Source: Planctomycetota bacterium (lineage in GTDB: Bacteria > Planctomycetota > PLA2). From it: a DNA stretch of 64,000 nt. Shown here piece by piece: positions 29,526 to 35,911 of the stretch (its first letter is position 1; the number at the start of each line of letters is the position of its first letter). The DNA is taken from contig JAJFFF010000008.1 of NCBI GenBank assembly GCA_021776785.1, positions 1 through 64,000 of the forward strand. Direction: 5' to 3'. Below the pieces are notes generated by a model. The model searched no databases. It had not been told where the DNA came from and saw only the letters and a program-made list of their open reading frames with translations. The translations under genes were made by a program, and so were the position numbers.

Positions 29526-29533
29526 GAGTGACC

Positions 29534-30325
29534 ATGAAGTACGGACGAACCCTCTCCGTCGTGCTTGTCGTCGCGACGATGGCGCTCAGTGCCCCGGGTG
29601 ACCGGCGCCGAGTCGGAAAAAAACCCGCCTGGAAGAACACGACTGCCTGCGTCGGATTCGGCGGAGCTCTGATTACCGTTGAGACCAGCGGCGCGCTCTA
29701 CCGCACGATCTTGGCCTCCGGTGCCTACACGCGCATTGGAAAGCCCGACTTCGTCGGAACCAAACATCTGCTCGCGCTTCGCGAAGCGTTACTCACCATC
29801 GAATCGTCTGGCTCGCTGTACCGCATCAGCCCCACCAACGGCATCTGGAAACGTATCGGCAAAGCCGGGGCCTGGAAGAACACGATCGCGGCCACGACGC
29901 TCAACGGAAAGCTCTATTCGATCGAAGCGTCCGGCGGCCTCTATGTCACCAATCCCGCAACGGGCAAGTGGACGCGCATCGGTAAGCCGGAGTTCAAAAA
30001 CACGCAGTACCTTGTCCCGGTCGGTGATGCTCTCTACTCCCTCGAGAAGTCGGGCAGCCTCTATCGCGTGGACCCCGCGAACGGCGCCTGGAAACAAGTC
30101 GGCAAGAAACACGCGTGGAAAGGCACGGTCTGCGCCGTCGGTATCGGCGGCACGTTGTTCACCGTTGAAACGAGCGGCGCGATGTACGCGACCAACCCAA
30201 AGACCGGAACCTGGACGTTGGTCGGCAAGAAAGACGCGTGCAAGGATGCGCGGTTTCTTGTCAACGTCGGCGGCAAGCTCGTTGTGATCTCGAAGAGTGG
30301 CGACGTCTACGAGGTGGAGAAATAG
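29534..30325 (+). CDS. Secreted tectonin/propeller-like repeat protein
   Basis: A 263-residue protein with a signal peptide (SVVLVVATMALSAPG). The rest is six repeats of about 40 residues. Each has an ET-SG-x-LY-x-(T/V)NP-x-TG-x-W core followed by (I/V)GK and a short WKNT or similar turn. The spacing suggests a small beta-propeller like the tachylectin/tectonin type, which binds ligands or carbohydrates. No enzyme motif. ATG 29534 is preferred over an upstream in-frame GTG (29528) because of the -10 box spacing. Confidence 0.65.
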   Translation: MKYGRTLSVVLVVATMALSAPGDRRRVGKKPAWKNTTACVGFGGALITVETSGALYRTILASGAYTRIGKPDFVGTKHLLALREALLTIESSGSLYRISPTNGIWKRIGKAGAWKNTIAATTLNGKLYSIEASGGLYVTNPATGKWTRIGKPEFKNTQYLVPVGDALYSLEKSGSLYRVDPANGAWKQVGKKHAWKGTVCAVGIGGTLFTVETSGAMYATNPKTGTWTLVGKKDACKDARFLVNVGGKLVVISKSGDVYEVEK

Positions 30326-31456: not shown

Positions 31457-33262
31457 ATGGCGAACGCGCGCTCTTTGCATCGTGTGGCTATTGGATTGAC
31501 GATCGCGACGTTGGGAGTCTTCGCGTTCGCTCGACTCCGAAGCGACCCCGGCGAGATCCAACCCAATGTTGTGATCGTATCGCTCGACACGGTGCGCGCC
31601 GATGCCGTAGGCAACGCCGACACTCCGTTTCTCAATGAGTTTCTAGAAACAGCACGATGGTTCCAGGGAGCGCGCACGGTGACTCCCCTTACGTTTCCGT
31701 CGCACGCCAGTATCTTCACCGGGCTCATGCCGCACCGTCATGGCATTCATGACAACGTCAATGCGCCGGTCCCGCGAACGAATCGAGCGTTCTCCTTGCT
31801 CGCCGAGGAGTATCAGCGCGCCGACTACGAGACCATCGCGTTCGTGGCCCGCGCCGTCCTCAAGCCAGAAACGGGGCTCGATGAAGGATTCGACGACTAC
31901 CACGCGCCGAGCGATGACTCCGGCCGGTCCTCGGGCTACAGGCGAGCGACTGAACAGGTCGCTCGGTTCCAGCGCTGGATGGCGAGCCGCAAGTCCGGAA
32001 AACCGTTTTTTGCATGGGTGCACCTGTTCGACGCACATCAACCACACATCACGTTCGAAGGCGACGACAAGCGCCCGGCGACAGCGAGCGCCGCAACGCA
32101 AGATCTGTACCGTGGCGAAATCCGGCGTATCGATGCGGCGCTGGAGACGATGCTGCGCGGCCTTGGCCGCGACACGATCGTCGTCCTTGTCTCCGATCAC
32201 GGGGAAGGCCTGAACGAACACGACGAACCGACGCACGGCCCGCTGTGTTTCAGCACAACGATCGACGCCGTGCTGATCGTCCGCGCCAGACAACTCGGAC
32301 GCGGCATCGACAAGGAAGCGCGCAGCGTCTGCGACATCGCGCCGAGCCTGCGGGCTTGGTGCCACCTCTTGCCGCAACGGTCCGATGGCGTGCCGCTCGA
32401 TCAATCGCGCGACCGCCGCGTGGTCACGAGCGAGTCCTTGTTCACGCATCGGATTCACGGTTGGGGGCAGTGCTTTAGTGCATTCGATGGGCGGTACAGC
32501 CTCGTGGAGCACGGGACCATGCTCGCGCTGTTTGATCGACGGTCCGATCCAGGAGAAACGCGACCGCTAAAACATCTCGGACACGCTGCATTCGAGCGCC
32601 TCGACCGTGCCCTGATCGAAATGCGCACGCACGGCTACGGATCCAACGGCTTAGTCGCCCCGATTGCGTCCGTTACGCCCTATGGTTTCGCACGCCGCGT
32701 CGGCGCCACCTACGTGCAGCGCCACGAGAACGCGAAGCTGACGAATCCGCAAGATCACCTCGACGACTGGGGTACGTTGACCGGGTTGGAAACGCTCCTC
32801 GGCATGGCCGCGCAACGCCGGGATCCGAACGCGTTGCGCCGGACGATCACCCGCATCGAAAAACTAGCACGGCGTGTTCCGGCATCGCCTTACTCCTACC
32901 AGCTTCTCGCCGCCGCGCAGGCAAGCATGGGGTCCATCACGAACGAGCCTCGTTGGTTTCGCGCCGCGTTTGACTCCATGTTGATTTCCGTCGATCGTGG
33001 GCACCGGTCGGCCTCGTCATTTCAGAGCGCGATGTATTGCGCCATCCGGCTACACGACAAAAAACGAGCGGCGACCGTGGTTGCAAGAATGATCGACGTG
33101 GGCACGACGCCGGATGAGTCTTGCGCGGAAGTCTTGGTTGCGGCGGCACGTGCGCACTTAATCGAATCGAGCACATGCCTGCAACTGGTTCGTGCGATGA
33201 CGCCGGAAGCGCCGACGACGCGCGAAAAAGTCTCGCACTGGATCGCGGAGTTCGGCGGCTAG
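31457..33262 (+). CDS. Membrane-anchored sulfatase-like hydrolase with C-terminal helical repeats
   Basis: A 601-residue protein. An N-terminal hydrophobic anchor (VAIGLTIATLGVFAFA) precedes a sulfatase fold. The first metal motif is VVIVSLDTVRADA. The nucleophile region reads PLTFPSHASIFTGLMPHRHG, so the formylglycine Cys/Ser of the C/S-x-P-x-R signature is replaced by Thr and the Arg by His. VLVSDHGEGLNEHDEPTHG gives the second metal site. The last roughly 150 residues are TPR-like helices. This variant resembles LTA-synthase or phosphotransferase-like relatives rather than true sulfatases. AAAGGAG precedes the ATG. Confidence 0.8.
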   Translation: MANARSLHRVAIGLTIATLGVFAFARLRSDPGEIQPNVVIVSLDTVRADAVGNADTPFLNEFLETARWFQGARTVTPLTFPSHASIFTGLMPHRHGIHDNVNAPVPRTNRAFSLLAEEYQRADYETIAFVARAVLKPETGLDEGFDDYHAPSDDSGRSSGYRRATEQVARFQRWMASRKSGKPFFAWVHLFDAHQPHITFEGDDKRPATASAATQDLYRGEIRRIDAALETMLRGLGRDTIVVLVSDHGEGLNEHDEPTHGPLCFSTTIDAVLIVRARQLGRGIDKEARSVCDIAPSLRAWCHLLPQRSDGVPLDQSRDRRVVTSESLFTHRIHGWGQCFSAFDGRYSLVEHGTMLALFDRRSDPGETRPLKHLGHAAFERLDRALIEMRTHGYGSNGLVAPIASVTPYGFARRVGATYVQRHENAKLTNPQDHLDDWGTLTGLETLLGMAAQRRDPNALRRTITRIEKLARRVPASPYSYQLLAAAQASMGSITNEPRWFRAAFDSMLISVDRGHRSASSFQSAMYCAIRLHDKKRAATVVARMIDVGTTPDESCAEVLVAAARAHLIESSTCLQLVRAMTPEAPTTREKVSHWIAEFGG

Positions 33263-33733: not shown

Positions 33734-34505
33734 GCGGGAGTCCTTTCGTCTCGATCCCGGCTTCGCCGGCGAGACACACTCTGGGAGATCGACCCTGGGG
33801 ACGAACCCCCAGGCGTACCGAACTCCCGAGCCCAAACTGTACTCGCCGAGTCGAGCGCCGCCTCGAAATTGCGGCCGGGGATCGGTATGGGGGCGACCCC
33901 GGGGCTCCGCAAGGGCGGAAAAATCGCTGTGGCAGCGGATTTCGGGCTCTTCGACGCACGGGCGTCGACCTGCTTATCGCGATCCTAGTCGCTCCTCGCG
34001 TCCGCATTTTCGGGGCGCATCCACGGCCTTCGCGTCAAAAAGCGGCGCAACAACGAGCCCCGTCGCGGCATGGAGCGCACGTGTCCGAGTTTGTCAGATC
34101 GAAAGGACACCGACAGAGCTTGGGCGGCTTGCGCCGACAAAAACCACCCCGTAAGAAGGCGGCGCAACGGAAGCCATCGCCACGCTCTGCGCGAACCGAT
34201 ACGCGTGGCTGTGTGGACTTCGCGAAAGCACAACGGACCCGGTGGCCCGCACCGTTGATCCGCGTCAACTTGGCGCTGCTTACGAGTGCGTGATCGTGCG
34301 CGCATTTCGCAACACCACCGCCAAAATGCGCGCCCCCGTTCGCGAGCGAACACAGACCGATGAAGATCGACGTGGTGCCGATGCGCGCGATCGGTTCATG
34401 CTGCGAACGGCACCTGAAACTCTCCCAACCGCCAGCGATTGTTCGGTAAGATCGTGCGCGACTCCTCGCGGCTTCGGGGAGAGGGCGTAACACAAGGGAG
34501 TGGTG
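33734..34505. other. Long intergenic region, no gene seen
   Basis: About 770 bp between divergent genes. The open frames on both strands overlap each other and have no recognisable features. It may hold a long leader for the RRM gene, as in cold-shock mRNAs; that is inference only. Confidence 0.45.
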
Positions 34506-35630
34506 ATGGCAGACAGAGTCATATTGTGCGTCGGTACCAAGCGCGGTTTGTTCTTGCTTGAGTCAGGCAAGGGGCGCAAGCGGTGGAAGGTGACGGGGCC
34601 GCTGCTGAAGGGCTGGTCGGTCCCCTACGCGTTTGTCGATACTCGCGGCACGCCGCGCATCCATGTCGCCGCCTCGAGTATGACCTATGGCTGCACGACT
34701 CTCTCCTCCAGCATCAAGAAGCACAACTTCAAGCCGGCGAAACAAGCTCCCGCGTTTCCGAAACTGAATCCCAAGGCCGCGAAGTTCGCGAAGCAATACG
34801 GGATCGACGCGTCGCCGCTCATCTGGTCGCTTGCGGCCGGGCCGGAACGCAAGAAAAAGGTCCTGTACGCAGGCACGGCCCCCGCCGGGCTGTTTCGGAG
34901 CGAAGACAGCGGGCAAACATGGGAGCCCGTCGCCGGCATCAACAACCACAAGACGCGCAAGGATTGGTCACCGGGTGCGGGCGGTCAATGCCTGCATAGC
35001 ATTCAAATGGATCCGCATGATCCCTCTCGCATGTACGTCGCGATTTCGGCGGCGGGCGCTTTTCGCAGTGACGATGGCGGATCCAGTTGGAAGACGATCA
35101 ACTCGTGCGTGGCGGACTACGTCGGCGCACCGAAAGAGTCCGCGGTCGGGACGTGAGTTCACAAACTCCTCGTACATCCGGCGGCGCCGGGTGTTCTCTT
35201 CCAGCAAAACCACGTCGGTGTTTACCAGTCGTCGGACCACGGCGACACGTGGCAGCGCATCGACAAGGGCCTTCCCTACGACTTTGGGTTCGGCCTCGCC
35301 CTAAACGCGCACGACCCGCACGCGTGCTACGTCATTCCGCTTGAGCCGCAGCAGTACAACTTCCGCGCAACGGACGGTGCACTGCGCGTGTACCGTTCCA
35401 CCAAAAACGGCAGCTGGAAGAAACTCTCGAAGGGTCTACCGAGCAAAGACGCCTACGTCAGCGTGCTGCGCCAAGCGATGGGATCTGATCTGCTCAAACC
35501 TTGCGGCGTGTACTTCGGAACGCAGGGCGGGCATGTGTTCGCGAGCGCGGACGAAGGCGCGAGCTGGGATGCGATCGCTGCGTACCTCCCGCCCGTGTAT
35601 TCGGTCACAGCGGCGGTCGTCTCGTCATGA
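34506..35630 (+). CDS. BNR/sialidase-like beta-propeller protein, selenoprotein candidate
   Basis: A 374-residue protein if TGA 35154-35156 is selenocysteine (U217). Asp-box (BNR) repeats run through both halves (SEDSGQTWEP, SDDGGSSWKT, SSDHGDTWQR, SADEGASWDA), as in exo-alpha-sialidase-annotated WD40/YVTN-like proteins. The TGA falls in ESAVGT-U-VHKLLVHPAAPG, where I recall GQCVHKL in homologues. An internal sister blade reads GGQCLHSIQMDP, with Cys162 at the equivalent position. An 8-bp hairpin follows. The frame then stays open for 157 codons and overlaps moaD by ATGA. ATG 34506 follows AGGGAG. The enzyme activity is unknown. A nonsense mutation is the alternative reading. Confidence 0.72.
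35174..35194 (+). promoter_or_regulatory. Predicted SECIS hairpin for U217
   Basis: Stem ACATCCGG / CCGGGTGT (eight pairs, one G-U) with loop CGGCG. The loop begins 25 nt after the TGA and its second base is G. Confidence 0.65.
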
Positions 35631-35911
35631 GCCAAGCGCCGCTCGTCGACCTACGGCTCCCTTCCATGTTGAAGGTAGCCGTGGGTCGCGATCACCTCCA
35701 AGTGCGCGGCCACACACTGAGCGAAGCCCTTGAGGCGGCGTTCGTCGAAGTCCATCAGCTCCGCTACCACCTCACGCTGGACTCGGGAGACCTCCGGCCG
35801 CACGTCCTGTGCATCGTCAATGGCGACGCTGTCAAACGCGACGGCCTCGCCGCGGTTCAGCTAAGCGAGGGCGACGAAATTCTGATCCACCAAGCGATCT
35901 CGGGCGGATAG
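35627..35911 (+). CDS. MoaD/ThiS-family ubiquitin-like sulfur carrier
   Basis: A 94-residue beta-grasp protein ending in the diagnostic Gly-Gly (HQAISGG), whose C-terminus becomes a thiocarboxylate or adenylate in sulfur transfer. VDLRLPSMLKVAV and LSEGDEILIHQAISGG fit the family. Its ATG overlaps the stop of the BNR gene (ATGA), so translation is probably coupled. MoaD-like genes next to BNR/sialidase-like genes are something I have seen elsewhere. No other molybdopterin or thiamine genes are nearby, so the sulfur acceptor is unknown. Confidence 0.82.
   Translation: MSQAPLVDLRLPSMLKVAVGRDHLQVRGHTLSEALEAAFVEVHQLRYHLTLDSGDLRPHVLCIVNGDAVKRDGLAAVQLSEGDEILIHQAISGG

Follow-up and report, generated by a model that had tools for sequence, protein, structure and literature searches.

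A predicted selenoprotein family of Asp-box propellers paired with a ThiS-like carrier in Planctomycetota

Most characterized selenoprotein families are thioredoxin-like, and against these an intracellular Asp-box propeller would be an unexpected fold for a selenoprotein family. We analyzed a gene of this kind in a 64,000-nucleotide stretch of planctomycete DNA (contig JAJFFF010000008.1, positions 1 to 64,000; hereafter the window), taken from a 5.0 Mb draft assembly of 57 contigs that is 92.6% complete. The gene shares with catalogued bacterial selenoproteins (119 families and subfamilies; PMC13188914, Table 1) a UGA in place of a Cys codon, Cys homologues in many bacteria, a SECIS-type hairpin with G in its first loop positions at a distance of 16–37 nt, and genomic machinery for selenocysteine (Sec). 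It differs in its motif: U-x-H stands in place of UxxC or CxxU, which are more common. Table 1 of that 2026 catalogue of prokaryotic families includes no BNR/Asp-box, WD40-like or sialidase-like propeller. Moreover, the terms BNR, sialidase, WD40, propeller and sortilin appear neither in the catalogue paper, nor in the deep-Sep paper (PMC12013277), nor in a review from 2022 (PMC9312934). No such selenoprotein family was found in open-access full text, with GenBank annotation and subscription papers outside the scope of the search, and NCBIfam (June 2026) offered no matching selenoprotein model, its only matches being non-selenoprotein models under their cut-offs. Our comparison did not extend to the supplement of a 2016 planctomycete genome paper, which lists selenoprotein candidates (PMC4807772). 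An earlier note, made from the letters of the window without database searches, had known of no description of this family as selenoproteins, and the family is indeed absent from the published catalogues searched. On sequence evidence, we have high confidence that it represents a new selenoprotein family.

The Asp-box propeller fold is common to the window protein and to sialidases (GH33), GH74 xyloglucanases, Ycf48/HCF136 and sortilin Vps10. However, none of these is listed as a selenoprotein, and their sequences match the window protein only in part, even though the Sortilin-Vps10 model PF15902 scores above its cut-off (46 vs. 33 bits). The closest known structure is PDB 3b7f, a structural-genomics seven-bladed propeller (Reut_B4987 of Ralstonia eutropha JMP134) whose function is not known (PMC2716378). 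It has the same fold as the window protein and equivalents of its His164, His219, and His236, but carries Asp (GHDPH) for Sec/Cys217 and Met for Cys162. The small protein encoded next to the propeller resembles the ThiS/MoaD and SAMP1 modifiers (PF02597, NF041918) in that it is likewise Gly-Gly-ended, exceeds the Pfam cut-off, and occurs in a genome with E1-like proteins. Unlike ThiS/MoaD genes, its gene adjoins no thi or moa genes in the window and is instead coupled to the propeller. We found no description of such a propeller and ThiS-like gene pair in the literature searched. The features of the locus are as follows.

34494..34500, plus strand: Shine-Dalgarno-like AAGGGAG, 5 nt upstream of the ATG, read off the sequence.
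34506..35630, plus strand: gene for a seven-bladed beta-propeller of the Asp-box (BNR) type; with UGA taken as Sec it has 374 codons, followed by a TGA stop.
34989..34997, plus strand: C162-x-H164, the first C-x-H motif; His164 is invariant, and Cys162 is usual, with Ala or Ser in some Sec members.
35154..35156, plus strand: TGA codon 217, predicted Sec; almost all homologues have Cys here, and one distant class of paralogues has Asp.
35160..35162, plus strand: His219 codon (U-x-H), invariant.
35174..35194, plus strand: SECIS-like hairpin with a 9 bp stem and apical loop GGC, 26 nt past the UGA; codons CCG GCG GCG CCG are fixed in Sec genes.
35211..35213, plus strand: His236 codon (QQNH), invariant.
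35627..35911, plus strand: ThiS/MoaD/SAMP1-like beta-grasp carrier gene, 94 aa, ending in SGG and translationally coupled through ATGA.

Upstream in the window, 29528-30325 encodes a short protein with internal repeats of the GxLYxxxPxxGxWxxIGK type, another likely propeller, and 31457-33262 encodes a sulfatase-like protein with VIVSLDTVRAD close to its N terminus.

The propeller gene forms one open frame from the ATG at 34506 to the TGA at 35628-35630, with the TGA at 35154-35156 as its sole interruption. We confirmed what the earlier note had read from the letters: this TGA is in frame with the ATG, and the frame stays open for 157 further codons, with the Asp-boxes SSDHGDTWQR and SADEGASWDA downstream of it. 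VGT-U-VHKL surrounds the TGA, GGQC-LHSI precedes it in a sister blade, and the gene overlaps the next one by ATGA. Standard annotation would cut such genes in two at the TGA. AlphaFold2, run on the window protein with 59 relatives and with Sec modeled as Cys, gave a confident propeller (pLDDT 91, pTM 0.92), for which 3b7f was the best structural match (TM 0.87). In a phmmer comparison, 3b7f proved to be a full-length homologue (3e-71 across residues 5-370, 36% identity). The chain starts straight in the first strand and no signal peptide is visible by eye, which argues for a cytoplasmic protein.

The alternative that survives best is that this protein is a sialidase or other glycosidase and that residue 217 is irrelevant to its chemistry. 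The BNR/Asp-box repeats would fit, as would the annotation of 3b7f as a putative glycosyl hydrolase and the fold shared with GH74 xyloglucanases. However, no sialidase or glycosidase model reached its cut-off (PF13088, 20.3 vs. 31.4 bits; NF045728, 71.6 vs. 175), the lack of a visible signal peptide counts against a glycosidase, and so does the pairing with a ThiS-like carrier. We consider this alternative highly unlikely. The label “BNR/sialidase-like” in the earlier note therefore stands for the Asp-box propeller class but not for a sialidase. The family is widespread, and its members currently receive sialidase or glycosyl hydrolase as their default annotation.

Homologues of the gene bear on the identity of residue 217. 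A search over 296 genomes of the phylum gave 15 best matches (54-100% identity), which form one clade with full support. At column 217, 11 of these genes (including the window gene) have TGA and four have a Cys codon. Several apparent internal TGAs in this search turned out to be nothing but terminal stops, and the position was checked in the loci retrieved. We also scanned one genome per species and took the best 80 relatives from genome contigs, ranging over Acidobacteriota, Chloroflexota, Gemmatimonadota, Verrucomicrobiota, Pseudomonadota, Actinomycetota, and others. Among them the column is Cys in 78 (G[HQ]CVH) and Sec in one, while one did not match the pattern, so the Cys that the earlier note expected here is nearly invariant. 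In addition, TGA recurs at column 217 (GQ-U-VHK) in two distant paralogues, only 43% identical to the window protein, each of which has a downstream hairpin of its own (L060 301-1386, at G147:C212:19881-20966, and L061, at G116:C279). Class- and family-wide searches recovered no further Sec genomes, and no relatives were found on the viral contigs searched.

The genome also encodes the machinery that Sec would need. We detected selA (421.9 bits), selB (311 bits, with its neighbors in the frame) and selD (365 bits), which lie consecutively in the order selB-selA-selD on contig 27 (L051, C27:126000-138000). The selD gene is itself a selenoprotein gene, with an in-frame TGA at C27:132870 in the motif GGUAAK and a hairpin with loop GUC ~33 nt downstream of that TGA. 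A tRNA-Sec with anticodon TCA is located on contig 45, separate from both the window and the sel contig (Rfam RF01852, 70.8 bits; ARAGORN agrees). The check for selA, selB, selC, and selD suggested in the earlier note was thus met in full. Rfam gave no match in the window or in the sel locus. Every one of the 11 genomes in the main Sec clade had SelA, with one yielding only a fragment at a contig start. It was also present in most genomes whose propeller copy has Cys, as expected where other proteins use Sec.

The published bacterial SECIS model specifies a loop of 3-9 nt, a stem of 4-16 bp, G in the first two loop positions, a loop 16-37 nt after the UGA, and a minimum free energy of at most -7.5 kcal/mol (PMC13188914). 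The hairpin of the window gene meets this model, with a 9-bp stem (35174-35182 / 35186-35194), loop GGC, a distance of 26 nt, and -14.2 kcal/mol. It had previously been drawn with 8 bp and loop CGGCG; the hairpin is real in the sequence, but we have redrawn it. All 11 close Sec genes contain CGGCGG[C/T]GCCGG (CCGG... in 10 of the 11), with the apical loop beginning 26 nt past the UGA. We scored the 68 fourfold-degenerate columns whose amino acid is conserved in at least 10 of these 11 genes. Just four of them show no codon variation for that amino acid, namely the unbroken run 225-228 that forms the hairpin. Close Cys genes encode nearly the same peptide without keeping the hairpin codons. Under synonymous shuffling, the mean z for the hairpin region was ~ -1.4 in the 11 Sec genes vs. 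~ +0.2 in 13 Cys genes, values that we did not combine into one probability because related genes are not independent. Taken gene by gene, fold energy alone mostly fell short of significance (p 0.01-0.26), so the argument for the hairpin rests on codon invariance across genes. Its 6-bp core is too invariant for compensatory change to show. The hairpin of the distant Sec paralogue L061 is a different one and lies over a different peptide (GGGCGC-CGGGC-GCGCCC, loop 22 nt after the UGA), and the G's of its loop are missing from L167, the Cys sister of this gene.

Three other accounts of the TGA can be weighed against these observations. If it were read as an ordinary amino acid, through reassignment to Trp or Gly or by a Cys-inserting suppressor, a full-length protein would also result, and the suppressor would even match the Cys of the homologues. 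However, TGA ends 3 of the 20 long open reading frames in the window as well as the propeller gene itself, the column is Cys rather than Trp or Gly, and Sec is favored both by the full selABCD set and by the specific hairpin that lies downstream. We give this account very little credence. The same ordinary use of TGA as a terminator lends some support to a true stop, which would leave a pseudogene or a 216-residue half propeller. But the 11 close Sec genes average 63.7% amino-acid identity after the TGA vs. 59.5% before it, and third codon positions change most, which rules out a decaying read-through region. A random nonsense mutation is also unlikely to have struck one Cys codon in two separate clades, and the Sec machinery is present, so a true stop is scarcely tenable. 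Finally, a sequencing or assembly error from TGC or TGT, a worry that the earlier note had raised and that a draft in 57 contigs might invite, cannot explain the same TGA in 13 genes of 11 separately assembled genomes with the downstream hairpin kept, and it is refuted by this recurrence.

We therefore return to Sec as the preferred reading. UGA-217 is almost certainly decoded as Sec, although this conclusion is strongly supported by sequence alone, with no protein or selenium data and without experimental proof of Sec insertion. SelB and tRNA-Sec would read the codon under the direction of the hairpin that closely follows it. The predicted product is one 374-residue cytoplasmic seven-bladed Asp-box propeller made together with a small ThiS-like carrier. 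As a whole, a selenoprotein gene with hairpin-directed Sec-217, a seven-bladed propeller, and a paired carrier is very probably the best explanation of the locus.

In the proposed protein, Sec would occupy the Cys position in a conserved C-x-H motif where the central channel opens, beside His164, His219, and His236. These three His residues are invariant in both protein alignments and are kept in those Asp-type paralogues that we read out. The strand map of the model has Cys162-His164 and Sec217-His219 beginning the inner strands of successive blades, with His236 closing the strand after the one that follows Sec217. From propeller topology and these strand positions, without atomic distances, we predict that Sec217 and the three His residues lie on one face at the channel mouth. 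At residue 217 the family has Cys or Sec, except for a distant class with Asp, to which 3b7f belongs, and we infer a catalytic or metal-ligating role for this residue. Cys, Sec, and Asp can all ligate metal, so we prefer a metal site over a catalytic thiol or selenol, which remains the alternative. Still, a site of three His plus Sec/Cys/Asp is a tentative assignment that may well be wrong. The sister-blade Cys that the earlier note pointed out is present as Cys162. It was rejected as an obligatory selenenylsulfide partner of Sec217, as some close Sec members have Ala (L023) or Ser (L025, the same gene as L080) in its place, and a Sec217-Cys162 bond is therefore not essential. More generally, the use of Sec flags residue 217 as chemically active and so points to the active site in a widespread family.

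The carrier protein scores 26.7 bits against Pfam PF02597 (cut-off 22.5), and falls under the cut-offs of both NF041918 SAMP1 (4.4e-10) and the ThiS equivalog. In profile searches, a carrier-like gene adjoined the propeller in all 15 main-clade members and at 85 of 110 propeller loci, usually directly downstream and sometimes upstream, and the pairing spans many bacterial phyla. Many of the 85 matches are weak in a large distant subfamily (E 1e-7 to 7e-3), and stricter regular-expression searches found carrier neighbors at only 1 of 80 and 19 of 110 loci. The genome encodes two ThiF/MoeB-like activating enzymes (E1). We infer that propeller and carrier are an enzyme-carrier pair, with the cargo not identified. 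The Asp-type paralogue loci L048 and L049 also keep a ThiS-like neighbor, indicating that the carrier does not accompany Cys/Sec chemistry alone. A defense role was unsupported, as PADLOC returned no match.

By inference only, the enzyme, which probably depends on a metal or a thiol and has the sulfur carrier as its partner, would act with the C-terminal Gly-Gly of that carrier, as a thiocarboxylate. Direct transfer of sulfur (or selenium) with the carrier is possible but doubtful. A fuller scheme is conceivable, though we think it unlikely to hold in all its parts: an undescribed and widespread two-protein system in which a mononuclear metal or nucleophilic center (three invariant His plus Cys/Sec/Asp 217) at the propeller mouth takes sulfur or selenium from the carrier thiocarboxylate, and which planctomycetes made a selenoenzyme at least twice. 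The conserved ThiS-like pairing provides a testable link to sulfur chemistry.

The distribution of states at column 217 suggests repeated exchange. A single clade of all Sec genes was rejected (AU test, p = 2.4e-6), which makes at least two gains of Sec probable, and Sec has probably also been lost more than once, as far as the gene sequences indicate. Sec and Cys states both occur inside one genus (g106). Among the distant paralogues, the sister copy in G214 has TGC at column 217 and shares 67% identity with the copy in G147. G214 thus has Cys in both of its paralogues, while G147 and G116 have Sec in both of theirs. Two separate Cys-to-Sec changes together with switches within a genus make this family a good case for studying Sec gain and loss. 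Within one genus, Sec and Cys forms alternate between G214, G236, and G291 on one side and G147 and G116 on the other. A further paralogue in the source genome itself (L075, G000:C39:227596-228660) has Asp (GQDVH) in place of Sec/Cys.
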